From: a virus
Strand: one strand, 5' to 3'
Virus record (IMG/VR): IMGVR_UViG_3300026118_000044
Location: 1 to 21,532 of that record
DNA length: 21,532 nucleotides
Shown: positions 2,485 to 16,922 of the stretch, one piece after another
Layout: the number at the start of each line of letters is the position of its first letter
How positions within the stretch are numbered: position 1 is the stretch's first letter
Made by a program: the position numbers and the translations under genes
Notes under the pieces: generated by a model
The model's input: only the letters and a program-made list of their open reading frames with translations
Told to the model about the DNA's origin: nothing
Databases searched by the model: none

Positions 2485-2685
2485 GTGAAGATCAGCAAAG
2501 ACCAGTTTGGGCTCTACGCGGAGTGCATCGGTTCCGGGCAGATAGAGCAGCAAGACGTTCCGAAACTCCTGGCCGAGAACCCGGAATTCGATGCTTGGTA
2601 TCGGTCGGAATTAGCGGGCTCGTCTGGCACCAATGAAACCGTACGATTGCATGGTGTTGACGGTGAATGTGGCAAAGGACGATAG
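2485..2685 (+). CDS. Small plus-strand protein, convergent with the fibre gene
   Basis: A 66-residue acidic protein, the only well-supported plus-strand gene. It starts at GTG with a strong ribosome binding site (AGGGGG, 7 bases spacing). Residues 1-45 read as a small helical protein (MKISKDQFGLYAECIGSGQI, then DVPKLLAENPEFDAWYRSEL). The last 21 or so residues lie antisense to the end of the fibre gene and look like read-through without conserved character. No membrane segment. The opposite orientation to all late genes suggests an independently expressed cargo (moron-like) gene or a remnant of one. A loose promoter-like pair lies upstream (TTGCTC about 2431, then a GATAGA region about 16 bases later), weakly supported. 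The ribosome binding site is part of a hairpin at 2461-2479. Function unknown. Confidence 0.55.
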   Translation: MKISKDQFGLYAECIGSGQIEQQDVPKLLAENPEFDAWYRSELAGSSGTNETVRLHGVDGECGKGR

Positions 2686-3684
2686 GAACACCGTGGTGGT
2701 GCCGGAGACGCTAATTCTCTTTTGGCCGCAAGGGAAAAACTGGGTCACCCCCGTCGTAAATGATAATTGCTGAAAAAACTCCGCGCCTTCGTTCGGGGCG
2801 GTCGGCACCGTCGCTGATGTGACGCTTATCCAGCAGCCCAAGACAGTCGGAACGGTCGCGGCGTTGGGGGCGAAGACCACGTTGCCGTAGACTTGCCAAT
2901 CCCCAGCGGTCAGCGATATCGAAGTAACGTTAGCTGCCGTAGCCGTCGTGTTGGATATGGCTGCCCCAGCCAGCACCGTGGCGCTGATAAATTCCCCGAC
3001 TTCACCCGCCGCCGCGCTGCCCGCTCCGGGCTCGCCATTCATGTGCCCGTTGGTGCGGGCGGCAGGCAGTGTGCCAGAACTCAAGTTCGAAGCATTCAAC
3101 GCGGTAAGGTTGCTGCCGACACCAGCCGATGGCGTACCGATATCGCCGCCCTGGAAATAGGCCAGCCCGGTTCCAGTCTCGTCCGTGATGGCTGCCCGCA
3201 GGTTCGCGCTTGAGGGCGTGCCGAGCCAGGTTGCGACGTTGGCAGCGAGCCCGGTGATGCTGCCGACGGCTGGCGTGCAGGTTGCCGCTGAGGCCGCGGT
3301 GATCAGGCCCTTGGCATTGACCGTGACGGCCGCGCACTGCGTCGCCGACCCGAAGCTGCCCACATTGGAGTTGACGGTGCCTAATGTGAACACGCCGGCA
3401 TTCGACATCGTGAGATCGCCGGACGGTGTTTGCGGCGTGGCGACGCTGCCGACAGAGCCGATCCAGATTTTCCCGGCAGCGAGCGGCAGGCCAGCATTGA
3501 CCAGATTGTTGACCCATGCCGTCGTCGCGATCTGGTTGTTATTTGCCGCAGTCGGTGCCGTCGGTGCGATCAGCGCGAGGCTCGATTGATTGCTCGGCCC
3601 GCCCCACTCCGTGCCGGGTTGCTGGGCGAGCGCGGGCAGCGCGAGGGAAGCGGCCAGCAGCGATCCGAGGGCAATGCGGCGCAT
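2611..3684 (-). CDS. Tail fibre protein with Sec signal peptide
   Basis: A 357-residue tail fibre. Residues 1-20 are a Sec signal peptide (MRRIALGSLLAASLALPALA, cut before Gln21). The mature part is clearly of phage-fibre type: PTAPTAANNNQIATTAWVNN (about 41-60), NVGSFGSATQCAAVTVNAKG and ITAAS, GTGLAYFQGGDIGTPSAGVG, NLSSGTLPAARTNGHMNGEP. The C-terminal 120 residues look like a compact jelly-roll tip (VTSISLTAGDWQVYGNVVF ... SYGFIGARRAR), an end shared by many proteobacterial phage fibres, probably the receptor-contacting part. The four mature Cys are an even number, as in the other two signal-peptide proteins. The ATG at 3684 lies 4 bases after the previous stop. The last 75 bases are overlapped on the other strand by a small gene. 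Tail fibre identity is sure; why it carries a signal peptide is not. Confidence 0.8.
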   Translation of the reverse strand: MRRIALGSLLAASLALPALAQQPGTEWGGPSNQSSLALIAPTAPTAANNNQIATTAWVNNLVNAGLPLAAGKIWIGSVGSVATPQTPSGDLTMSNAGVFTLGTVNSNVGSFGSATQCAAVTVNAKGLITAASAATCTPAVGSITGLAANVATWLGTPSSANLRAAITDETGTGLAYFQGGDIGTPSAGVGSNLTALNASNLSSGTLPAARTNGHMNGEPGAGSAAAGEVGEFISATVLAGAAISNTTATAANVTSISLTAGDWQVYGNVVFAPNAATVPTVLGCWISVTSATVPTAPNEGAEFFQQLSFTTGVTQFFPCGQKRISVSGTTTVFLSSFATFTVNTMQSYGFIGARRAR

Positions 3685-3688
3685 TATC

Positions 3689-4063
3689 TTATTCCCACTC
3701 GAACACGGTTAGGCTGGACGCGCCGGCGCTTGCGATGGCGTTCCATGCCGTATTGACCTGTGGCTGCTGGCCAACGCCGTCCACCCGGTAGGACTGATAG
3801 GGCAGCAGCGTGATCGAGCCGGCGCCGTTCACCGTACACGTGATGGTCGGCGTCGCGGTGCGGCTGATGGTCGGGCAGACCGCGATCTTGGCGGTGTCGC
3901 TCGAGTTGTAGAATTCGATGCGCTTACGGGCTGCATTGACCCCGATCGCCTGCGCCGAGCTGGTGCCGACCACGACGGGATAGGTGTATGGCAACGCTGC
4001 CACCTGTGCAAAGGCGGACCCAGCAAGGCAGAGCGCAAAGAGAGTGGCGGCAAGGCGGATCAT
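3689..4063 (-). CDS. Small secreted beta-rich protein of the tail module
   Basis: A 124-residue protein between tailspike and fibre. Residues 1-19 are a clear Sec signal peptide (MIRLAATLFALCLAGSAFA, cut before Gln20). The mature part is a single beta-rich domain (RKRIEFYNSSDTAKIAVCP, then ITLLPYQSYRVDGVGQQPQV and TAWNAIASAGASSLTVFEWE) with two Cys that could form a disulphide. That strand pattern (values set on strands, then Asn-Ala-Ile-Ala and a closing hydrophobic strand) is common in small phage proteins near tail fibres; the function is unknown. It may be an accessory to the spike, a fibre chaperone or a virion decoration. The ATG at 4063 has AGGGAG with 8 bases spacing. Its stop is 4 bases before the fibre start, so it is surely co-expressed with it. 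Confidence 0.72.
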   Translation of the reverse strand: MIRLAATLFALCLAGSAFAQVAALPYTYPVVVGTSSAQAIGVNAARKRIEFYNSSDTAKIAVCPTISRTATPTITCTVNGAGSITLLPYQSYRVDGVGQQPQVNTAWNAIASAGASSLTVFEWE

Positions 4064-4091
4064 TCGTGAGGCTCCCTACGGTGACGTTGCA

Positions 4092-6329
4092 TCAGAAGCA
4101 CTTCCATGCGCCGTTTTGGCGGAATGCTGTGGTGCCAGTACCACCTCCGGCACAGGTGGCTGGAGTACCATCAGCAACGAAAATGCTACTTGCATTCGCA
4201 GCGGCGGGCAGCGTGGCGACGGTGAAGAACATCCCCACGTTACCAGAGTAGGTCTGCGTGCCGGTGATGGAGCCGAAGCTATTGGTGCCTCCAGTAACAG
4301 TGTTGTTGGAAACGATTAAAGCTCCTGAGAAGAAGTTCACGCCAAAGTTTATCGCTGAGGTGGTGCCGACGATGGTGTTGCCAACAAGCTCGAGGTAGTT
4401 AAATCGATTGGTGGTGCTCGAAACGCCCAAGACAGTTGTGTCGAAGGCGTCGAAGTAGTTGCCACGAATGATAACCCGTTCGGTGTTGGTAGTGCCAACG
4501 CCAGCACGACTGTTATAGCATTGCGAAGTGCCGGCGGTTGAAATGCAAGAGTTGCCAGTTACAAAAATGGAGCCAGCAAGTTGGGAACCAACACCAATTC
4601 CAAGCTGGTTTTGCGTAAGGATGTTGTTAGCTACGGTGATGCCTGCTGCACCATTGATAGCTATGCCACCACGAATGAGCAAGGAGTCGAGGAAGGTCTG
4701 TCCGGTGATTGTATTTTCGGCAAGCAATAAGCCATATGTAGTGCCAGCACCGACCACATAAATCCCAGCACCAATTGGTGTGGAGATATAGTTACGTGCA
4801 ACGATACCATCGCCGGGCGGATTGCCATCGGAGTTGAGGTCGTACACGGCAATGCCATAGGCATTCGTTGACGCGAGGGTGTTGGTGCAATGGGAGCTTA
4901 GATTCCCTGCGCCGGGGTTGAGGAATTGATTATCAGTGATGCGGTACTTTTGAAAATTGGAAAAGAGGATGATTCCGAAGCAAACCCCGTCGGCCTCGAC
5001 CTTGGAGTTCTGGAACTTGAAGTTTTCCCAACGCGATCCACCGGTGCCGGTGAATAAGGCAATGGCGTAGTTCGTGTTATTGGGCAGCGTAGGATCGGTG
5101 GGGATATCTGCGGTGACAGAAGCGATCCAAATGTTGTCGAATGTAACGTTGTTGACGACATGTGCTGCGCCGGATTGGTTGCTTACAATCCAATAGCTAG
5201 AGTTGAAATTGCTAAGCTTGAGATTCCGCAGGGTTAGATTGTTTTGGGCAGAGCTTGTGGTGATTGAAATCGCGCCGATGTTGGATGCGGTCCACGAAGT
5301 ATAGGTGCGATTGCCAAGGAGCCAAAGGTCGCGGATAGTGAGGTTGCTGACATTATCAATATTGATGATCCAATCAGCGCCGGTCTGCTTGATGATGGAG
5401 AGATTGCGGTCAACACCAGTAATGGTGATTCCGCTAGCAGGCATGTTCAAATGCGCGGTGATTACGCAGGTGCTCGCAGGGATCAATAGGGTCTTACCTG
5501 CGGAGGCGGTTACGGCAGCTTGTAGAGCAGTCGTGTCATTGGTAACGCCATCGCACACGGCGCCGTAATCTCTCGGCAGGACATACGGCGCCGCCGGCGG
5601 GGTAGGTGTGCTGATAATGATCGGATTCGTTCCGGTGAAAACGATGCCCGAACCGGCCTGAATGTTGTTGGTGATCGTGGTCGGATTGACGCCGGTGAAG
5701 CTGATGCCGTTGCCCGCCGCGAAGGTAGAGCTCGGCACCGAGACGCACGGGACTAGGTTTCCGCCACTGTCGAAACACGCACCTTGATTGGCCCGTGAGG
5801 CCAGCACCGGCAGCAGCGCCAGCGTCTCGCCTGGCGGCGTGCGCACCGAGCGCCCGGTGACGTCGTTTATCTTGTCCCATACCTCGCGGCTCTGCGCGGT
5901 CAGGTCGGATAGCACCACATTGAAACTGCGGGTCGGAACGCCGGTGCCCTCATTGAATTGCGAGGTGCGGCGCGGGCGGCGGGCGCCGACGATCTGCACG
6001 GTACCGGTCTGGGCCGTGGCGAAGGTCAGCACCGCATCGGTGATCGGCCGCGGAATGGTCGCCAGCGCCCCGGTCGGCGAGGTGATCGTCCAGCCGCTGG
6101 GCTGCCGCGCGCCGTTGACGAAAACCTCAACCCAATTCGTATAGTCCGTCGAATCGCCATAGAGCTGAAAGCCGACCGCGCAGGCGCAGGTCGAGGCGCT
6201 GATGACGTAGCTTGTCCGCCTTTCGGTGTCCGGCAACGCTGGGACAGGCGGCGGGACTTGCGCGCAGGCCGGAGCTAATCCGGCGAACAGGGCGGCGGCG
6301 AGGATGGCAGATCGGATTGAGTTTCGCAT
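4092..6329 (-). CDS. Beta-helix tailspike protein with Sec signal peptide
   Basis: A 745-residue receptor-binding tailspike. Residues 1-23 are a textbook Sec signal peptide (Arg2 and Arg6, hydrophobic core, cleavage ACA|Q). Residues about 34-180 are a T7-fibre-like N-terminal anchor: YTNWVEVFVNGARQPSGW, RRTSQFNEGTGVPTRSFN, REVWDKINDV, RTPPGETLALLPVLASRA. After a Gly/Asn/Thr-rich linker, LPRDYGAVCDGVTNDTTALQ (from about 251) opens a pectate-lyase-like right-handed beta helix rich in Asn, Thr and Ile repeats, likely binding or cleaving surface polysaccharide. The mature part has 12 Cys, far more than the neighbouring virion proteins. The ATG at 6329 is chosen over an upstream in-frame TTG because it gives a normal signal peptide; no good ribosome binding site is seen. 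GC falls from about 68% in the anchor to about 47% in the helix, suggesting a domain swap. Confidence 0.8.
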   Translation of the reverse strand: MRNSIRSAILAAALFAGLAPACAQVPPPVPALPDTERRTSYVISASTCACAVGFQLYGDSTDYTNWVEVFVNGARQPSGWTITSPTGALATIPRPITDAVLTFATAQTGTVQIVGARRPRRTSQFNEGTGVPTRSFNVVLSDLTAQSREVWDKINDVTGRSVRTPPGETLALLPVLASRANQGACFDSGGNLVPCVSVPSSTFAAGNGISFTGVNPTTITNNIQAGSGIVFTGTNPIIISTPTPPAAPYVLPRDYGAVCDGVTNDTTALQAAVTASAGKTLLIPASTCVITAHLNMPASGITITGVDRNLSIIKQTGADWIINIDNVSNLTIRDLWLLGNRTYTSWTASNIGAISITTSSAQNNLTLRNLKLSNFNSSYWIVSNQSGAAHVVNNVTFDNIWIASVTADIPTDPTLPNNTNYAIALFTGTGGSRWENFKFQNSKVEADGVCFGIILFSNFQKYRITDNQFLNPGAGNLSSHCTNTLASTNAYGIAVYDLNSDGNPPGDGIVARNYISTPIGAGIYVVGAGTTYGLLLAENTITGQTFLDSLLIRGGIAINGAAGITVANNILTQNQLGIGVGSQLAGSIFVTGNSCISTAGTSQCYNSRAGVGTTNTERVIIRGNYFDAFDTTVLGVSSTTNRFNYLELVGNTIVGTTSAINFGVNFFSGALIVSNNTVTGGTNSFGSITGTQTYSGNVGMFFTVATLPAAANASSIFVADGTPATCAGGGTGTTAFRQNGAWKCF

Positions 6330-6360
6330 GCACGGCAAGGTGCCGTCACGGTCAAAACGG

Positions 6361-6372: not shown

Positions 6373-9300
6373 CTACGGTTTGGCCTTCATCGGGATGCCG
6401 AGCGCGTGGTTGGCGCCCTGCTCCACCTTGTCGAAAAGCTGCGGGATGAACGGGAAATTCGCGCCCAACGTCATCATCCGCAACGCATGGGTATCGCTCT
6501 CGCCCCACTCCGACGGATGCGTGGCACCGCGGGTGACCTGCATCATGTTCTTGAGCTTCCCGTAGGTCGGACCGAGGAACATGCTGGCGGCGTCCTGGCT
6601 GACGAATTTGGACAGCGGCTTGTCGGCGCCGATCGCGCGGTAGATGTCCGCCTTTCCGCCCGTCGCTTTCGATACTATCGAATTGGAATCCTCGATCGCG
6701 GCCAGGATGCCGCTGCGCGATACGCCTTCCTTGACCCAATCCTGCACGCGGTCGGAGGTCGGGCGGCCGGACGACAGGCTGTTGATGCGGTAGGACAGCA
6801 TGCCCATGCCGACCGCCGTGATCATCCCGGCCATGGTGCCGGCGTCGTGGCGCTGCAGGTTCGCTATCAGGATCCGCTGCGTCGCCGAGACCGTAAATTT
6901 CTTGTACTGCACCAGCACGTTGTAGCCGGGCTTTGACATGAATTTGGGAACTTCGCCGTATCCGGGCTGCACCACGGCAATATCGACGTCGCGGCCAACC
7001 GCCCCCCGGAAAACCTTGGCCGCGGTCTGGTCGGTCCACTTGTCCATGTTCGGCAGGATGATGCCCTTGACCCGCTCGCCGCCGTTGTTCGACCACTGCT
7101 CCCAGATGCGGGCGGCCTGCGCCTCGGTGATGTTGCCCTCGGCCAGGCGCTGGATCTGCTTCGCGGTCGCCTTGCCGCCCGCCACCGCCTCGGCCGCGCG
7201 CAGGATGTTGCTCGCCACAGCGTTCGTGGCCATCCGCTTCTGGATATCGGTCAGCGGCGCCAGCAGGTTCGCGATGAAGGCCTTGTCGCTCGCCCATGTC
7301 AGCGCCCTCTCGAATTTGGAATTCGGCCGGTAGTGCTCGGCGATGTCGGACAGGGCATGGTTGCGCGAGGCCGAATGCATCTCGATCCCGATGCCGAACG
7401 CCTTCCATTCGTCGCCCGCGGCCTTCACCGCCGCCCAGGCTTCCTTGTCCATCATCGAACTGGCGAACGGTACCCATGCATCCTTGAAGGCGCTCTCGAT
7501 GCCGTGGCGGAACACGACGCCGGCGAAGTCCGGCAGGGACGATACCGCCATGCCGTGGCTGGAGATGATGTTGTTGACCTTGAGCGCGTTCTGCGAGAAC
7601 CGGGCCAGCCCCTGCATCGTCGGGTCATAGCCGAACGTGCCCCGGTTGCGGTCGCGCATCGCGGCGACGTTCTTGAAGTCGGAATCCATCTGGTCTTTGA
7701 GCTTGTTCTGCGCGGCCTCGGTCTTGGCACTGGCGCGCGCCGCGGCATAGTCGCTTTCGATCTCCTTGAACACGCTGGTCATGTTCGGATCGCCGCCGAA
7801 CCGCTCGGCCAGCAGCGCGTCGGGCAGCACCGAATGGGTGTAGGATTTCAGCGCCTCGCTCGCGTTCCGGCGCAACCACGGCTTGGCCATCTCATAGGGA
7901 ATGTCGATCTCGCGATGCGCCCCGTGGCCGCGGAGCTCGGGCGCCGTCCCGGGGATCGCCTGGCCGCTGCTCGACGCGTCGTAAGGCAGCCGCCCCTCCG
8001 GCGTGCCGAGGACGCGGCTGGCGATCTCCTCGGCGCGGGCCCTGAGCTCCTGCGGCGACAGATCACGATCGGACTCGATGATGCGCCGCACGGCCTTGTC
8101 CACCGCCTTGTCGGCCGATGCCAGCCGGTCGCCCTTGCTCTTGGACGTCCCGGCAGCCTTTGCGGCGTCCCTGGCCTGCTCGGCTTCCGCGCGCGCCTTC
8201 AGGGCCGCCTTGGCTTCCGCGGCCGACGTGCCTTCCCAATTCGCGATCTCCTCCTCGAGCTTCTTCCGCATCTCGTCGTGCGCGGCGCTGGCGCGGATCA
8301 GATCGTCCTCATGCCCGCCGCGGAACAGGTCATCTTCCTTCATCTTGGCGAGCTTGGCGGTGGAACTGTCGATCGTGGCGCGCGCTTCCTGGAGCTTCTG
8401 CGCGAGGCCCTCGATGCGGGTCTTGGCCTGCGCCTTCATCGTCTGCTCGCTGACCAGGTGATTGGTCCACGTCGCGACGTAATCATTCCAGTTGGCGCTG
8501 ATCTTCTCCTTGTCCCACAGCCGCGGCGCGTAGGTCTCGCCCGGCCGGGTCACGGTTTCCTTGAAGCCCTCGATCGATTTGAGCGCGCGTTCCTTGATCG
8601 GGTCGAGGCCATTCTTCCGGAACCACTGCGCGGTTGCCGCGACCTGCGGGTTCGGGTGGGTGTCGCCGGTCGAGAGCGCGTCATAGACCGCCGCGTTGAA
8701 GTCGTCGAACGACAGCTTCCCCTCGGGCGCCGCCCCGGTCTGGCGCTGCAGGAAGGTTGCGCCGCCCTCGCCCTGGTCGAGATAGCTGCCCCACTGCTTC
8801 ATCATTTCCTGGTCGGCTTGCCAGTGCAGACCCTCGCGGATCTGCTTCAGCTCGCGCTCGACCGTCGGGCCGCCGAACTGTGTCGCGGTCTGGCCTTCCT
8901 TGTTGGCCTTGAGCATGAACGCCGTGTCGGTGAGTTCCGTCACCGCCGCCTTGGCGCGCGGCGAGGCGCTGTTCGTCAGGACGTTGAGGTTCGGGAACGA
9001 CTTCGACATCACCGTGCTGACGCCCGGGACGCTGTCAAGGCCGTAGGGCACCGGCGACAGGTCGCGGGTATCGGACGGAGCCGCGCCGGCCGCCATCGCC
9101 TGACCGGTGCTGCCGCCCGGTGCGGGCTCCTGCGGCAGCCCTGGGACGGCATCGGCGATATTGCCGGCCGGGCCAGTCTGGGCCGGATCGGTCTGCGGCG
9201 CCTTCTCCATCGCACCATTGTGCTCGGACAGCTTCACGCGCGCGCTGTCGAGCGAGCTGACGCCCTTTTCGAGCAGACCCTCGCGGGCCAGCAGCGCATA

Positions 9301-9906
9301 GCCGCCGGCGCCCAGCAGGCCGCTGAGAAGGGTATTGGTGCCGATGTTGATGGCCGACTCCGTCAGCGTCCGCTCGGGCTGGCTGGCCTGCAGCAGGGCC
9401 TCTTGGGCGGTGGACTGCATCGCCGCCACCTTGGCCACCGACAGGCCGACATTCGCCGCCTCGCCGCCGACGGTCGCTGCGCGCGCCAGCCGGAAGGCAT
9501 TGCCGACCGGAAGGAACATGGTGGGGTCGATCATTTGCGTCGCGATCCCGACCGCCACGCCGTTCGCGCCGCCGGCCGCCAGCAGTTCGCGATCCTTCTT
9601 GCCCTGGCCGATCTCGGCCCAGATCGCCAGCGTCTCCGCCGGGGACTGCGAGCCGAGGAACGACTGGCCGTGCATGCGCAGCGCCTCGTCGTCGGGCCAG
9701 TTCTGCTTCAGGTCGTCGATCGGGTTGTAGCCGGGCTGGGGCGTGTAGGTTCCGCGGCTGAGGCGCTGGATGACGGAACCCAGCGCGTTCTCCGTGCGGA
9801 AGGCGGCGCCGAACAGTTCGTCGGCCTCCGGCGCGGTCGGCGTCGGCTTGGGCGTCTGGCCGAGGCCGGGGCTCAGGCCCGGGGCGACGTCGTTGAAGTC
9901 GCTCAT
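6373..9906 (-). CDS. Large internal virion (ejection) protein, gp16-like
   Basis: A 1,177-residue, Cys-free protein, the largest DNA-ejection component by role; such proteins leave the head first and form a conduit across the envelope. N-terminal hydrophobic helices occur around residues 115-170 (GVAVGIATQMIDPTMFLPVG) and 195-205 (SGLLGAGGYALL). A Pro/Gly-rich linker follows, then a charged coiled coil from about 480 to 640. The C-terminal third (about 780-1120) has the recognisable end of such proteins: HGMAVSSLPDFAGVVFRHG, VLVQYKKFTVSATQRI near 1000, a Gly/Met-rich hydrophobic helix, and EGVSRSGILAAIEDSNSI. No transglycosylase domain is seen here, which fits its presence in the neighbouring protein instead. 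T7 gp16 has 1,318 residues. Start coupled by ATGA, without a clear ribosome binding site. Confidence 0.8.
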   Translation of the reverse strand: MSDFNDVAPGLSPGLGQTPKPTPTAPEADELFGAAFRTENALGSVIQRLSRGTYTPQPGYNPIDDLKQNWPDDEALRMHGQSFLGSQSPAETLAIWAEIGQGKKDRELLAAGGANGVAVGIATQMIDPTMFLPVGNAFRLARAATVGGEAANVGLSVAKVAAMQSTAQEALLQASQPERTLTESAINIGTNTLLSGLLGAGGYALLAREGLLEKGVSSLDSARVKLSEHNGAMEKAPQTDPAQTGPAGNIADAVPGLPQEPAPGGSTGQAMAAGAAPSDTRDLSPVPYGLDSVPGVSTVMSKSFPNLNVLTNSASPRAKAAVTELTDTAFMLKANKEGQTATQFGGPTVERELKQIREGLHWQADQEMMKQWGSYLDQGEGGATFLQRQTGAAPEGKLSFDDFNAAVYDALSTGDTHPNPQVAATAQWFRKNGLDPIKERALKSIEGFKETVTRPGETYAPRLWDKEKISANWNDYVATWTNHLVSEQTMKAQAKTRIEGLAQKLQEARATIDSSTAKLAKMKEDDLFRGGHEDDLIRASAAHDEMRKKLEEEIANWEGTSAAEAKAALKARAEAEQARDAAKAAGTSKSKGDRLASADKAVDKAVRRIIESDRDLSPQELRARAEEIASRVLGTPEGRLPYDASSSGQAIPGTAPELRGHGAHREIDIPYEMAKPWLRRNASEALKSYTHSVLPDALLAERFGGDPNMTSVFKEIESDYAAARASAKTEAAQNKLKDQMDSDFKNVAAMRDRNRGTFGYDPTMQGLARFSQNALKVNNIISSHGMAVSSLPDFAGVVFRHGIESAFKDAWVPFASSMMDKEAWAAVKAAGDEWKAFGIGIEMHSASRNHALSDIAEHYRPNSKFERALTWASDKAFIANLLAPLTDIQKRMATNAVASNILRAAEAVAGGKATAKQIQRLAEGNITEAQAARIWEQWSNNGGERVKGIILPNMDKWTDQTAAKVFRGAVGRDVDIAVVQPGYGEVPKFMSKPGYNVLVQYKKFTVSATQRILIANLQRHDAGTMAGMITAVGMGMLSYRINSLSSGRPTSDRVQDWVKEGVSRSGILAAIEDSNSIVSKATGGKADIYRAIGADKPLSKFVSQDAASMFLGPTYGKLKNMMQVTRGATHPSEWGESDTHALRMMTLGANFPFIPQLFDKVEQGANHALGIPMKAKP

Positions 9907-12900
9907 GGCTGCGGCATCGCGTTGTTGAACTGGTTCCTCATCGCGTCCAGCTTGCCGCGCAGGTCGGCCTCATGCTTGGCCAGATACTTGGTCGCGTCGA
10001 AGGTGATCCGGTTCGGCAGCACGTCGATGTCGCCGTTGGCCCGCTTGACCGCCACGTAATAGGACGGCGGCTGGCCATTGGAGACCTCGGATTCGGTGCG
10101 GCCGTCGGCGACCAGGCCGGACACCGACCAGCCCGGGGTCTTCACGCCCATCATGCCGAGCCGCGGCACGTCCACCCCTCCGGGCGGCCCCAGCCGCTCG
10201 GTGATGAAGTCCTTGAGCTGCTCGCCAATCCAGTTCGGCGCGCCCTCGATCGGCTTGTTGTAGTTCTCGGGCGGCAGCCGCATCAACTGGTTGCCGGCCG
10301 CCTGCGACGGTCCCCAGGTCGATTTCAGCCGCTCCACCGCCTTGTCGCTGGCCTTGTCCGCGGGCACGCCCATCGAGCGCAACTGGGCATAGGTCGCCTT
10401 GTAGTCGTTCACCAGCGCCCCGCCCATCAGTGAACCGCCGGGCATATTGGCCGTGTCGGGCACGTCCAGCGGCGCGTTCGGGGTGTTGCCGGTCAGGCCG
10501 CCGAGCAGCCACGAACCGGTTCCCATCTTGTAGGCCATGTCGCCGGTGGTCAGCTTTTCGGTCTCCTTCTCGGCCGCGTCGCGGGCTTCCTTGCGGGCCT
10601 TCGCGGTCGCCGGGTCGTCGGACTGGTTGAGCCGCTTCGCCAGTTCCTCGGGCGGAAACGCGCCCTTCAGCGCCTGCCAGGCCTGCAGCTTGTCGAGTGA
10701 GCCCTTGCCGAGCGCCTGTTCCGCCAGCGCAGCAGAATGCTGCCAGACCTTCTCGGCCACCGCGTTGGCGGTCGACATCTTGACCGGGTCGAGGCTCGAC
10801 TGCATCGAGGTCAGGGTGTCGGTGAAGCCCTTCTGCGCCAGCATGGTCTGCATGTCTTCCGGCTTCAGATTGGTCGCGATCGAGGCCAGCACCTGGGCGC
10901 CGGCCGGGCCTTCCAGCGCGCCCTGCAGTTGCGGCATCTCGTCCTTGGTGATGACCGGCGGGGGCGGCGTATGGTTCATGGCCGCGATGCGCTGCGAGGC
11001 CGCCACGCGCTCGGCCAGCGCCGCCGGGATGCTGTCGGGCCGGCCCGGGTCGATCGGCGCCACCGGTGCGATCCATCCGCGGGTGGCCGCCTCCTGATAG
11101 GGCTTCTCGGCCAGGTTCTTTTCCGACTTCGAATACTGGTCCAGCGCGGACGCCGCCACGTTCATGTGGTGGACGTCCTGCCCGTTGGTGGCGTCGCGAT
11201 AGGCCGCGATCACCCGGTCCCGCTCCGGCTTCTCCATCTGCGCCAGCGCGCCGCCGAGCAATTGACCGTTCATCTTCTCGGCGACCGGGCCGAACTTCTC
11301 GGGGTAGATCAGCGCGGTCTGGTTCACCAGCGCAACGTCATCGGGTCGGGCCAAAAGGCCCTTATCCACAGCCTTTGACACCCCGTCAGCGGCCTGGGTG
11401 GCCGATTGGATGCGCAGGCTCTCATCCGCCGCGATGGTCCGGACATAGGCCGAGCCGAGGAACGGGTTCCGCTGGAGGTCGGCGGCGGTGAAGCCGGGGC
11501 GGCCCGGGGCCGCCGCGGGGGCCATCACGCGCGGGCGAGCCGTCGACGCCTTGAACGAGGCGGTGTCCTGCTCCATGAAACCGTGCATTTTCTGATAGCG
11601 CGCCTCAGCCTCTTCCGGGTTTTTGTAAGCGGGGAACTTGTCCCAACCCTCGGCGCGCACGCGCTCCACCGCCTGATCGACAGAAAGGATTTTGCCATCC
11701 CAAACTGTCGGAATGGCATAGGTCTTGCCGTCGTGATCCACGGTCGCTTGGAACAGCGTCGATCGGCTGCCGTCTGGATTGTCGACGCCGCCGGGGCCCG
11801 TCAGGTTGGTCAGGTGGCGCTGATAGAGCGAACGTTCCTGCGGCGTCAGCTTCATCGCCGCATCGGCATCAGCAAGGCTGGGACGGAAGGCCGGCGCACC
11901 ACCCGCCGGCTGCCGGCCGCCGGGCAGCGACGCCCACTGGCCGGAAAGCTGGCGCGGCACGTCCTCGATCGCTGCCGCGTCGCCGGATTTCAGCGTCGCC
12001 AGCAGGTCGCGACCGGTCTTTGACTTGTATTCGGTCTGCGCCAGGTCCCATGCCGCGGCGTCCTGGTTGGCCGGCGAGAAGTCCTTCAGGCCGAGCTTCT
12101 TGGCCTGCTGGTCCCAGGTCGAGCCGAGGAACTGATACAGGCCGGCCGCGCTGGTCTTCTTGCCGACGTCGGGGCCGGAGGTGATCGGCGCGTAGACGCG
12201 GGGATGGTCGCCATAACCCTGGAACCGGCCGCCGCCATAGAGCATGTCGTAGCTGGTGGCCTCGCCGCTCGCGATCCGGCCCAACAGCGCGCGGCCCTCG
12301 GCCGGGATGGTTTCGTTGGCGATCGGCGTGCGCTTCAGCCCAAGCATCTCGGCCTGGATCGCCTGCGGCAGGGTCTGGATGCCGGTCAGGTTCATCCGCA
12401 CCGTAGTCGCCGCGAGGATGCGGTTGGCGCTCTCGGGATCGCCGCGCTGCTTGGCCTGCTGGATCTCCATGCCGATGATCGGGTCGGTCGGCTTGATGGT
12501 GCCGTTGGCGATGTTAGTCTCGAGCTCGGTCACCACCTTGCGGCCGGCGTCGATCTTCTCCTTGGAGTCCGCGGTCAGATATTGCAGCCGCGCCATGCCG
12601 TGCGAATAGAGTCGGTTGCGATCGGCCTCGGTGATATTCGTGTTCTGCAGGACGTTCTCGCTGAGCGCCTTCTGCGCCTCGGCCTTGCCCTTCTTGGTGA
12701 AGGTGGCATCGATCTCCGAGACGATCGCCTCGCCCTGCAGCAAGCCGCGAAAGCTTTTCTTCTCCAGATCGATCTGCTCGCGCGGCATCTTGAACAGCGG
12801 ATTGGTGCCGAGCGCCTCATAGGAGGCATCGAGCTTTTCCTGTGCCGCCTTGAACTCCGGCGTATAGGTTCCGCCGGGCTGGCGGGCGAGGCCCTGCAGC

Positions 12901-13469
12901 GTGTTCTTCTGATCGTCGATCGTGGCCGTGATCGACTTCTGCTGATTGACGATGTCGAGCTTGCTGGCGGTGTTGCTGATCGAGTTGTAATGCTGCGTCG
13001 CCTGCGAATCGAACTGCTGCGAGATCGCCTCGCCGACGAGGCCGCCGCCGTGCTCCTTGGCGTACTTCGCCTTCCACGCGTCTGCTGCCGCCTTGAACGC
13101 GGCCGGATCGGTCGGATGCTTCTGATGCAGGTCATTCAGATCGGTCGAGATGACGTTGCTGTGCTGCGCGATCGTACCGACCTCGACGGCGTGCTTGTAG
13201 GCCTGTCCGGCGCGCCCGACGATCACCGAGTTGGCTGGGTCGGCGACCGAGACCGAACCGTCCGGATTGCGCATGACCTTCTGCTGCTGCAGATCGTCGG
13301 CCGCTTGCTCCTTGGCCTGCCGGGTGGCGATCTCCATCTGCGCGTCGGCCACGTCGCTGATCGCCTTCGCCATCAGGTTGGTATTGCCGATGATGTCCTG
13401 CCGCGATACCGAGGAGGTCGGTGCCTCGGATGTGACGATGCGATCGGGTACGGTTGCGAGTTGAACCAT
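9903..13469 (-). CDS. Internal virion protein (gp15-like) with embedded lytic transglycosylase
   Basis: A 1,188-residue, Cys-free, mostly helical ejection protein. Residues 1-385 are helical and polar (ISDVADAQMEIATRQAKEQA). Residues about 388-520 match the lambda R lytic transglycosylase: SGEATSYDMLYGGG with candidate catalytic Glu403, then YGDHPR, SAAGLYQFLGSTWDQQAKKL, LGLKDFSPANQD and WASLPGG. This domain would cut peptidoglycan as DNA enters the cell. Residues about 552-633 form a second small domain (NPDGSRSTLFQATVDHDGK, then IPTVWDGKIL and RYQKMHGFMEQD), a type seen in many phage proteins but of unknown function; its DNA is clearly lower in GC than its flanks. The remainder is helical up to a short beta-rich end. 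T7 gp15 (747 residues) lacks such an enzyme; in T7 it sits in gp16. Start is coupled to the previous stop (TGATG), and its own stop overlaps the next start (ATGA). Confidence 0.8.
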   Translation of the reverse strand: MVQLATVPDRIVTSEAPTSSVSRQDIIGNTNLMAKAISDVADAQMEIATRQAKEQAADDLQQQKVMRNPDGSVSVADPANSVIVGRAGQAYKHAVEVGTIAQHSNVISTDLNDLHQKHPTDPAAFKAAADAWKAKYAKEHGGGLVGEAISQQFDSQATQHYNSISNTASKLDIVNQQKSITATIDDQKNTLQGLARQPGGTYTPEFKAAQEKLDASYEALGTNPLFKMPREQIDLEKKSFRGLLQGEAIVSEIDATFTKKGKAEAQKALSENVLQNTNITEADRNRLYSHGMARLQYLTADSKEKIDAGRKVVTELETNIANGTIKPTDPIIGMEIQQAKQRGDPESANRILAATTVRMNLTGIQTLPQAIQAEMLGLKRTPIANETIPAEGRALLGRIASGEATSYDMLYGGGRFQGYGDHPRVYAPITSGPDVGKKTSAAGLYQFLGSTWDQQAKKLGLKDFSPANQDAAAWDLAQTEYKSKTGRDLLATLKSGDAAAIEDVPRQLSGQWASLPGGRQPAGGAPAFRPSLADADAAMKLTPQERSLYQRHLTNLTGPGGVDNPDGSRSTLFQATVDHDGKTYAIPTVWDGKILSVDQAVERVRAEGWDKFPAYKNPEEAEARYQKMHGFMEQDTASFKASTARPRVMAPAAAPGRPGFTAADLQRNPFLGSAYVRTIAADESLRIQSATQAADGVSKAVDKGLLARPDDVALVNQTALIYPEKFGPVAEKMNGQLLGGALAQMEKPERDRVIAAYRDATNGQDVHHMNVAASALDQYSKSEKNLAEKPYQEAATRGWIAPVAPIDPGRPDSIPAALAERVAASQRIAAMNHTPPPPVITKDEMPQLQGALEGPAGAQVLASIATNLKPEDMQTMLAQKGFTDTLTSMQSSLDPVKMSTANAVAEKVWQHSAALAEQALGKGSLDKLQAWQALKGAFPPEELAKRLNQSDDPATAKARKEARDAAEKETEKLTTGDMAYKMGTGSWLLGGLTGNTPNAPLDVPDTANMPGGSLMGGALVNDYKATYAQLRSMGVPADKASDKAVERLKSTWGPSQAAGNQLMRLPPENYNKPIEGAPNWIGEQLKDFITERLGPPGGVDVPRLGMMGVKTPGWSVSGLVADGRTESEVSNGQPPSYYVAVKRANGDIDVLPNRITFDATKYLAKHEADLRGKLDAMRNQFNNAMPQP

Positions 13470-13934: not shown

Positions 13935-16232
13935 TCATATTGTCACTTCCGATGCGAACTCCGCGATGAGCAGCGGGCCCGGGGTACGTTTGATGATGGC
14001 GGCGCGCGGATCGTAGGTGCTGCCGACAGGCGCATATGATTCCACGGTCTCGCGCTGGGTCGGCGGCAAGGTCGCGTCCTCGCCCGCGTTATAGGCCGGC
14101 ACGGTGCGCTGGTTCATGACGGTGCCGAGCGGCGGGGACGTCGGAAGTTGCTGCGACGAGAACAACCCCGCCATGTCGAAGCCGGTCGAATTGATGACAT
14201 AGACGTTGAAATAGGAATACTGCCGCTTCTTCATCCGCTGACCGGCATCGGCGCCGGACTGCGCGTCGGGCGCGAACGGCTCGCTGGTCATCGTCCATAT
14301 CTGCCCCGCGGCGAGCGAGGCGCGCGTCAGGTCTTCGCCACCCTGCCCCTGCGGAATGATAAAGCCGTCGGGGTCGATCTGATAGGTGCCCATGTAGCGC
14401 GTGCCCTGATCCATCAGCGCAACCGTCTGGCCCTGGATCCACCACAGCGGGCCCTTGCCGAGCGGCGGCGCAAAGGCTGCCGGCAGCGCGTTCACGAACA
14501 GGTTGGCATCGAGATAAACGCTGTCGTCGAGCACTTCGCAGATGCCGGCGCCAAAATACTGCGTGGTGAACAGCACGTCGGCATTCCACGCCGATATCCA
14601 CTTGACCGTGCCGGCGCCGGACCACGGGCCCCAGCCGATCGTTCCCGCAAGCTGGCCATCCTGCGTCGTGTACTTGCCGCATACGATCGATCCATCGCCG
14701 TTGAGCACGTAGGCATAGCGTTCCGCGAATGTGTCATCCGCGGTCGGCACCGCGATGGCCACGACATTGTGGAACAGGTGGTTGTGAAAGTCGGTCAGGT
14801 TCTTGACGTTGAACGGGCGATAATAGGCACCGGGTGCTACCACCGCCATCACGCTGTTGCCGCCGGCGTTGACGTACAGCACGGTCTCCTGCGCCGCGCG
14901 CGGCTGCACCTGGGCAACACCATCGCTGGACAATATCTTGAATGCGACGCTGCCGGGCTTGAGCGGATTGGTTTCGTTGATCGGAATGTAATAGACCTTC
15001 TTGTCGCAGAACACGATCTCCGAACTTTCCGGACCTGACGTCACATAGTGCACCCGCACCTTGGCGGGCGCGATCTCGAACATGCCGGAGTTCGGATTGA
15101 CGCCGACATAGATATCGGTCGGCGCGTTGATCGATGACCATGAAATGCCGCCAGGCACCGATGGAAAATCACAGAACCCGAGCCGGAATTGATCGACAAA
15201 GCAGGAGGCGGGATAGCCCCGAAAGGCATTCATCACCTCGTCATCCCATATGGCCACCGCCAAGGGCGCCCCGACGGCGGCGGCGCCGGAGATCGCACTG
15301 CTGCCGCTTGGTCCGGCCACGACCTCGAGCTGCTGAAACGCCGTCGTGATCGTTTGATATCCGACCCTGTCGAATGTCGTCGTGGAGGTCGTGGACGTCG
15401 AAAGCAGTTGAACATTCATCGTAAAGGTTGCCGGGATATAGCCAACCACTATTCCCTTGGAGCCGGAGGTGGCGCCGACGACCTGGTCACCGATGCTGAA
15501 AGTCAGTCTGGGATCCGTCGCAAACGCGATCGACTGGCTCCCGGGAAGCGCTTCCTGCACCGTGCCGGTGACGCTCAAGGCGCTGGTGTAGCCCGTGATC
15601 AGGATTTGCCGATTGACGTAGCGCAGGATGGTGCCAACCCATGCCGGCGTGAACAGCGGATCGGACGCTGTCACGGTAATGACTCCGGTCGCCGCCGATG
15701 GCAATAGCGTGATGCCCTGCGGGGAGATGCGATAGAACGGCGTCCGCTTCTGACTGCCAATGACAAGCTCGGTATAGTCCGCGATGCTCCACGTCGAGGC
15801 GCCGTTCCACGACACCACTTGCGGACGCATGGTGTGGCCGAACGTGATATAGATCGACAGCCCGATCACCGCATACACGATCTGATTGACGTTGAGCGCC
15901 GTCCACGGCAGCGCCACGCCCGAGCCCTGGTTGTTGAAGCTCGCGACCTGCACCCCGGACGAATTGAAAACCTGCAGACGTCCCGCGCCGAACACCAGCT
16001 TGAAATCGTTGCCGGGTGACATCGTGAGTTCTTCGGTGCGCGTCGCGGTCAGCACCGGAAACAGGGCCGAGCGGCCCGGACGGTTCTGCAGGCCGCCGGC
16101 GTTGAGAATGCGGGAATTCGCCATCTGGCGCAGCCCGGCCTTGCGCGCCGGGTGATCGTCACGCCGCTTGAGTGCGACGTCGACCTCGCCATAGGAAAAA
16201 TCGAACTGTGAGCCCTGGATCTGTTTCGGCAT
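13935..16232 (-). CDS. Tail tube protein B-like nozzle protein (T7 gp12-like)
   Basis: A 765-residue beta-rich protein that forms the tail nozzle below the adaptor in short-tailed phages. The N-terminus carries the family pattern: FDFSYGEVDVALKRRDD, then a helix ending with NAGGLQNRPGRSALFPVL, in place of the commoner F-S-x-GE and G-x-x-RRPGT-x-F. The middle is a long series of beta strands with many aromatic residues (a propeller-like body), and the C-terminal part ends with a strand-rich domain (PGPLLIAEFASEVTI). T7 gp12 has about 794 residues, so length fits. Its ATG overlaps the end region of the adaptor gene with GGGA about 8 bases upstream, and its stop is 13 bases before the next gene. 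Five Cys are scattered, with no signal peptide. Confidence 0.82.
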   Translation of the reverse strand: MPKQIQGSQFDFSYGEVDVALKRRDDHPARKAGLRQMANSRILNAGGLQNRPGRSALFPVLTATRTEELTMSPGNDFKLVFGAGRLQVFNSSGVQVASFNNQGSGVALPWTALNVNQIVYAVIGLSIYITFGHTMRPQVVSWNGASTWSIADYTELVIGSQKRTPFYRISPQGITLLPSAATGVITVTASDPLFTPAWVGTILRYVNRQILITGYTSALSVTGTVQEALPGSQSIAFATDPRLTFSIGDQVVGATSGSKGIVVGYIPATFTMNVQLLSTSTTSTTTFDRVGYQTITTAFQQLEVVAGPSGSSAISGAAAVGAPLAVAIWDDEVMNAFRGYPASCFVDQFRLGFCDFPSVPGGISWSSINAPTDIYVGVNPNSGMFEIAPAKVRVHYVTSGPESSEIVFCDKKVYYIPINETNPLKPGSVAFKILSSDGVAQVQPRAAQETVLYVNAGGNSVMAVVAPGAYYRPFNVKNLTDFHNHLFHNVVAIAVPTADDTFAERYAYVLNGDGSIVCGKYTTQDGQLAGTIGWGPWSGAGTVKWISAWNADVLFTTQYFGAGICEVLDDSVYLDANLFVNALPAAFAPPLGKGPLWWIQGQTVALMDQGTRYMGTYQIDPDGFIIPQGQGGEDLTRASLAAGQIWTMTSEPFAPDAQSGADAGQRMKKRQYSYFNVYVINSTGFDMAGLFSSQQLPTSPPLGTVMNQRTVPAYNAGEDATLPPTQRETVESYAPVGSTYDPRAAIIKRTPGPLLIAEFASEVTI

Positions 16233-16235
16233 GGC

Positions 16236-16922
16236 TCACGTCCCGGGCCAGCCGGGCCTCCCCAAGCCGGGAGTGGTCGGCGAGCCGGGCCGGCGGCTGC
16301 GGCGCGAGAGCGTCATCCGCGACACGAATATCGCACGCTTCGGCATCTGCATGTCGTGGCGGGCCTTGGCGTCCTTGAGCATCTGCATCGCGGTGGCGAA
16401 CAGTCGGCCGGATTCGGCGACGTCCTTGTGGATGCCGCGATAGATGCCCGACATCACGAACATCTGCAGCACGATCACCGCGGTCGGCGTCGCAAAGGTC
16501 GGGTCGGAATTGGTCGAGAAGATGCCCTTGATCACGACCGGCAATGCCGGGCCAGGCACCGGCGCCGGCGGCGGGCCGCCGCGCGAGTTGACGATGAGCT
16601 GATCGTGCAGAAGATCCCAGACGCAATCCCGGTCGTTGACGCGGACCATGATCAGATGAATGAGATCGTCCGGCAGATTATAGGCGGTGTCGAAGCGGAG
16701 GTCGGCCGGCGCGGTCGGATCGGGATTCAGCGTGCGCCATTCGGTCAGCCAGCTCCACGAATGGCTTTCGCAGACATAGGCGAGGCCGCGCTCATAGGCG
16801 GGCGAAGAGACGTTCCACTCGACCGAGCCGTCGTCCGCAACCGCCACCTGGTTGTCGCCGGTCTGCGACAAGGCGCTGTTGATGATTTCGGTCTTCGACA
16901 AGGGCCATTGAAAAGCTGCCAT
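16236..16922 (-). CDS. Tail tube protein A-like adaptor (T7 gp11-like)
   Basis: A 228-residue protein of the tail tubular protein A / head-tail adaptor type, which forms the ring connecting the portal to the tail nozzle. Typical signs are SKTEIINSALSQTGDNQV near the N-terminus, YERGLAYVCESHSWSWLTEWRTL around residues 44-66, and the YNLPDDLIHLIMVRV strand. Length is close to T7 gp11 (about 196). The C-terminal 27 residues are Arg/Pro/Gly-rich (RRSRRPGSPTTPGLGRPGWP) and look like an added disordered tail. No good ribosome binding site precedes the ATG at 16922. It is the first gene after the terminator and lies 3 bases upstream of the nozzle gene. Confidence 0.8.
   Translation of the reverse strand: MAAFQWPLSKTEIINSALSQTGDNQVAVADDGSVEWNVSSPAYERGLAYVCESHSWSWLTEWRTLNPDPTAPADLRFDTAYNLPDDLIHLIMVRVNDRDCVWDLLHDQLIVNSRGGPPPAPVPGPALPVVIKGIFSTNSDPTFATPTAVIVLQMFVMSGIYRGIHKDVAESGRLFATAMQMLKDAKARHDMQMPKRAIFVSRMTLSRRSRRPGSPTTPGLGRPGWPGT

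Follow-up and report, generated by a model that had tools for sequence, protein, structure and literature searches.

Three adjacent tail genes of a T7-like podovirus encode a spike, a small protein, and a fiber with Sec-type signal peptides and paired Cys, which suggests that spikes and fibers of Bradyrhizobium phages may be finished outside the cytoplasm and be added to the particles no earlier than about the time of lysis. Export and oxidative folding were well supported in silico. We consider it probable that these receptor-binding proteins are virion components that would be exported by Sec, cleaved, oxidized, and stored in the periplasm, and docked at lysis. With slightly less confidence, we lean towards the wider view that a tailed-phage lineage completes its virions outside the cytoplasm, by making spikes as Sec precursors, oxidizing them in the periplasm, and fitting them to DNA-filled particles at lysis.

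The analyzed window (21.5 kb, 63% G+C) is a virus record of IMG/VR, in which the minus strand carries nearly all coding; coordinates written with two dots refer to this strand. The order of the module is that of T7-like podoviruses: portal, scaffold, capsid, two small genes, an adaptor-like gene, a nozzle-like gene, gp14, gp15, and gp16. The spike, small protein, and fiber genes follow downstream of gp16 as intact ORFs on the minus strand, and small membrane and lipoprotein genes come after them. The gp16-like ejection protein (6373..9906) was used as a Cys-free control. The nozzle- and adaptor-like tail tubular proteins (13935..16922) have no signal and are the expected docking partners. After the fiber gene, positions 1655-2062 encode a lipoprotein with the lipobox VAGC that may be an outer-membrane spanin, and positions 2062-2394 a membrane protein with two helices that may be a holin. 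In other genomes the small protein and the fiber travel as a pair that, unlike in the window, is flanked by head genes on one side and by the adaptor-like tail gene on the other (L004:5941-7908; L029:6441-7939; G007:C1:12652-15953). Signal-bearing spikes also adjoin another set of ejection proteins (L008, L014, L019).

The spike precursor (745 aa; 4092..6329) comprises the signal, a T7 gp17-like docking domain, and a beta-helix receptor part. It starts with the ATG at 6329, and an in-frame TTG at 6338 would keep the signal as well. The pectate-lyase-like beta-helix region (5004..5573) matched PF12708 with E=1.9e-4, which is below the curated cut-off, and the spike matched phrog_18522 ("tail protein") with E=6e-10. 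A tblastn search among 50,697 annotated phages revealed no full-length relatives of the spike, the small protein, or the fiber. Relatives of the spike were collected by scans and searches of IMG/VR viruses and genomes, which yielded members from IMG/VR and from Bradyrhizobium. Remote genome matches (L175-L178) were discarded as chance similarities on reading the sequences. Some relatives have an unusual architecture. The L053 spike (Bradyrhizobium genome G132, reverse strand) keeps the signal and the PALPDTERR start, but most of the docking domain is missing and the sequence continues into the beta-helix; it is possibly a decoy or a remnant of a decaying prophage. In the L200 spike (L200:3914-7600; about 1,200 residues), the docking domain is joined to a C-terminal module that resembles the window fiber. 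One spike (L033, SCSV01000188.1) was found in a MAG labeled as the actinobacterium Salinibacterium, probably a mis-binned contig of a proteobacterial phage.

Signal peptides were called by a home-made rule that asks for a basic n-region, an uncharged hydrophobic core, and an AxA-type site. All three proteins passed; the same rule gave no pass at 4041 positions scanned in the window's eight other structural proteins that served as controls. Each showed the n-h-c organization with an AxA site and no lipobox. The signal peptides were MRNSIRSAILAAALFAGLAPACA for the spike (6261..6329), MIRLAATLFALCLAGSAFA for the small protein (4007..4063), and MRRIALGSLLAASLALPALA for the fiber (3625..3684), each followed by Q. 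Cleavage is predicted (slash) at LAPACA/QVPPPV in the spike, GSAFA/QVAALP in the small protein, and PALA/QQPGTE in the fiber. With shuffled N-termini, 2 to 16% of trials also gave a pass. Since the composition alone is signal-like, a single signal call is weak evidence and conservation is the better test.

This conservation was strong. Every member of the first set of spike relatives had a signal, as had 18 of the 19 complete members of the second set; a last scan added more, and the spikes of named Bradyrhizobium prophages also had one. The signals shared a mean pairwise identity of only 35%, versus 64% for the docking domain that follows. Nevertheless, 44 of the 45 called spike signals had Ala at -1 and 39 had Gln at +1, in a set that includes a few near-duplicate contigs. 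Since the search patterns were built from exported members, and one of them contained Cys, the proportion of signal-less relatives is underestimated. The initial annotation had proposed Sec-type signals with an AxA/Q site in all three tail proteins and had asked whether homologs keep them; by our rule both held, in IMG/VR relatives as well as in Bradyrhizobium prophages.

The mature spike, small protein, and fiber contain 12, 2, and 4 Cys, respectively, and gp15, gp16, the gp14-like protein, and the scaffold contain none, in agreement with the earlier counts. The other signal-less virion proteins of the window have 5 (portal), 5 (nozzle-like), 2 (adaptor-like), 2 (capsid), and 4 (g17647). Spike C22 and small protein C12 lie inside the signals, so the totals are even only after signal removal; the raw count of the spike is 13 because of C22. 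In three proteins such evenness means little, and we looked at the relatives. After removal of the signal, the Cys number was even in all of the first 17 complete spikes. With the prediction fixed beforehand, 17 of 18 signal-bearing spikes of an out-of-sample set were even as well. Together with three later spikes, this gave 37 of 38 complete signal-bearing spikes (p about 1e-10). Clustering of unrelated C-termini left 27 of 28 groups even, with the three later spikes outside the clustering and phylogenetic dependence persisting within the groups of similar C-termini. The exception was the exported spike L188 with 15 Cys. Signal-less controls were near chance (12/21 structural proteins from these same phages and 18/33 fibers even).

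The Cys were also arranged in pairs. Close successive pairs were seen in all 37 of 37 spikes, with a median gap of 16 within and 82 between pairs, versus 10 of 16 signal-less structural controls with medians of 48 and 38. The pairs of the window spike are spaced by 2, 10, 29, 31, 9, and 18 residues and separated by 64 to 162 residues. Cys density per 100 aa was 1.7 in exported spikes versus 0.1-0.3 in the controls. The homologs of gp16 had no Cys in 17 of 17 cases. The lack of Cys in the ejection proteins gp15 and gp16 (window 6373-13469) perhaps reflects a need to act in the periplasm. The argument from even Cys counts, weak on three proteins, thus became strong through the homologs. The proposal that these are genuine phage tail proteins that would be exported and folded oxidatively gains support from signals that drift and are nevertheless kept, from Cys parity, from Cys pairing, and from signal-less homologs in which these features are missing.

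The small protein (124 aa precursor; 3689..4063, ATG at 4063) is a predicted beta-rich secreted protein. A signal was present in all of its homologs (L003, L004, L005, L029, L037), in which the Cys63-Cys76 pair (3836..3877) is invariant. A fold search gave a weak match to the Ena2A fiber (E 0.026), which was set aside. The tail fiber (357 aa precursor; 2611..3684, ATG at 3684) matched phrog_11393 (tail fiber) with E=5e-8. Its homologs with a signal include L003, L004, L029, L037, L121, and others. The Cys117-Cys136 pair (3277..3336) lies on either side of the VTVNAKGLITAAS hairpin; it is kept in L003, L004, L036, and L121 and was missing at this position from the signal-less fibers compared. 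All fiber homologs with a confidently called signal had an even number of Cys (4 to 12), counting 6 for L029 after dropping two Cys upstream of the start. The L024 fiber was even as well, but its start is doubtful. The L130 fiber fails the rule yet looks signal-like by eye; the contig ends within its ORF, which encodes 13 Cys. About 6% of the VxAKG-hairpin fibers among the IMG/VR matches listed also begin with signal-like segments (L058, L072, L084, L121, L130, L140, L161), and exported fibers may be spread more widely beyond this group. Paired Cys were not seen in the low-G+C VxAKG fibers with such a start. No docking domain was recognized in the small protein or the fiber.

The mature N-terminal part of the spike (5835..6260) is a predicted virion-docking domain, as judged by conservation, AlphaFold, and Foldseek, and appears to resemble that of T7 gp17. 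Two AlphaFold models were obtained (pLDDT 64 and 58); that of the mature N-domain was weak, with pLDDT 64 and a TM of about 0.3 to its fold matches. The top 12 Foldseek entries for this model were all podovirus portal/tail or T7 fiber structures, led by LME-1 (E 3e-4, the only one below 0.001) and followed by HRP29, Kp7, Carin 1, and T7 gp17 (7boz). Comparison with T7 gp17 and T7-like fibers by hhalign was marginal, with E 0.0027 and a probability of 11%, and the expected R..F.(D/E)...A.DLN register was aligned. The domain was not recognized in Pfam and PHROGs searches, and a PDB sequence search with its profile returned chance matches only. It is the best conserved part of the spike, while the C-termini are swapped and mostly unrelated. 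A docking domain that is kept while the receptor parts vary is typical of spikes anchored to the virion.

Within the docking domain we compared a CxC motif (C48, C50; 6180..6188) among homologs. It was invariant in a set of 19 homologs, and others had TGPF or a similar sequence at that place. A requirement for CxC in every signal-bearing spike was rejected, since six exported spikes (L208, L209, L217, L219, L220, L222) have a TGPF-like sequence instead; CxC is thus common but not essential. Only three signal-less spike homologs were found: L038 of phage JY08 (3 Cys), L174 in a genome from the same order as Bradyrhizobium (0 Cys), and the virus L206/L215 (9 Cys). JY08 was also the one remote relative found among annotated phages with the docking domain alone as query. 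In L038, L174, and L206, the protein begins with the docking domain or close to it, and TTGPF, ATTDF, or STGPF stands in place of the STCACAV of most exported spikes. The initial annotation had regarded homologs without the N-terminal segment as evidence against export. These three do exist, but they lack CxC, two have an odd number of Cys, and the third has none. The tail-module gene of L206 has nozzle and gp14 as its neighbors, which indicates that a conventional spike uses a domain of this kind as well.

These data bear on the role of the exported proteins, for which the initial annotation had offered late addition to virions, receptor-blocking decoys, or uncleaved anchors. As decoys, the proteins would accumulate in the periplasm or escape at lysis, cap receptors or polysaccharide, and block re-adsorption of progeny or superinfection, and the virion would have other spikes. 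Export and disulfides are equally compatible with this role, L053 keeps the signal with most of the docking domain gone, and several spikes sit in integrated prophages. However, the docking domain is the part of the spike that is conserved best, and the signal-less sister L206 lies within a tail module. In addition, no other spike gene was recognized in two near-complete phages (45-47 kb), nor was any signal-less spike or fiber gene in their head-tail modules. The presence of a docking domain makes virion use likelier than decoy use, and we favor late docking of virion spikes on this evidence; the decoy role is unlikely.

Slightly less likely still is a dual use, in which spikes dock to virions but are exported chiefly to provide free enzyme that degrades surface polysaccharide and debris during release. 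The beta-helix region of the spike is depolymerase-like, and in L020/G013 the spike has as its neighbor a GDSL esterase-like protein whose N-terminus looks like a signal. No enzyme family was found in the fiber or the small protein, however, and enrichment in disulfides does not require an enzymatic role. The esterase gene (L020:6482-7825, equal to L231:16745-18088) encodes a twin-arginine-like N-terminus (MNRRELLAGAAMLAGAGQANA), and its product is possibly exported by Tat rather than Sec. It is improbable that uncleaved signals tether the tail parts to the inner membrane as the site of their assembly: the positive n-region and hydrophobic core would act as an anchor if uncleaved, but both the AxA (-3/-1) and the Gln (+1) are conserved, and the Cys numbers are even only with the signals of the spike (C22) and the small protein (C12) removed. 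That the proteins remain cytoplasmic, with N-termini that are hydrophobic by chance or result from misassigned starts, is very unlikely given the Cys statistics, as the signal is conserved across dozens of phages and coupled to Cys parity and pairing, even if some shuffled sequences pass the rule.

For late docking of virion spikes, we propose the following course. In a Bradyrhizobium-type host, the spike, the small protein, and the fiber would be exported by Sec during late infection, and the signals would be removed at AxA/Q. The proteins would fold in the periplasm, form local disulfides, and be stored there. Holin, endolysin, and spanin would then open the envelope, and virions built in the cytoplasm would meet the spikes, whose gp17-like N-terminal domain would dock on the tail at or after lysis. 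Since the tail partners in the virion have no signal, export, oxidation, lysis, and docking is the simplest order, with the last step inferred. Against this course, periplasmic trimers could diffuse off at lysis before they meet virions.

Virions of tailed phages are held to be built entirely in the reducing cytoplasm. As in T7, where gene 17 follows gene 16, the spike gene is located after gp14-gp15-gp16, and as in T7 gp17-type fibers, an N-terminal docking-type domain is combined with a variable C-terminal receptor part. By its sequence T7 gp17 has no signal, whereas the spikes described here have a signal and dense, paired Cys. Cytoplasmic manufacture of T7-type fibers implies the absence of a signal; a signal was present in the window and in nearly all relatives. 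Tailspikes of the P22 type have a pectate-lyase-like beta-helix, which our spike weakly matches, but the N-domain of the P22 tailspike is different, and we know of no description of P22 spikes as exported. Israel and colleagues reportedly achieved P22 morphogenesis in vitro from heads and baseplate parts in 1967 (cited in PMC3741392), a precedent for finishing a podovirus particle outside cells. The phage lipoprotein Llp of T5 is exported to the periplasm and blocks re-adsorption. Llp, a small lipoprotein, has neither a virion-docking nor a fiber domain, whereas the three window proteins have no lipobox. Secreted endolysins (with signal or SAR) are exported by Sec before lysis, sometimes with disulfide control (PMC7143992); these are lysis enzymes, whereas the spikes and fibers described here are predicted receptor-binding proteins. 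The target proteins of phage DGRs lack signal peptides (PMC6199706). In the literature searched, which included few subscription journals and preprints, we found no description of exported tail fibers or spikes, although an earlier report is possible; exported tail proteins are not mentioned in the papers we examined on podovirus spikes and on phages of Bradyrhizobium.

The proposed course predicts mature N-termini with Gln and disulfides in virions of any Bradyrhizobium lysogen with such a prophage. For annotation pipelines, a signal peptide should not rule out a virion protein. If true, the conserved export and disulfides of host-recognition proteins would break the rule that virions are assembled in the cytoplasm only. 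These phages would gain spikes stabilized by disulfides, and their infectivity would be acquired at lysis.
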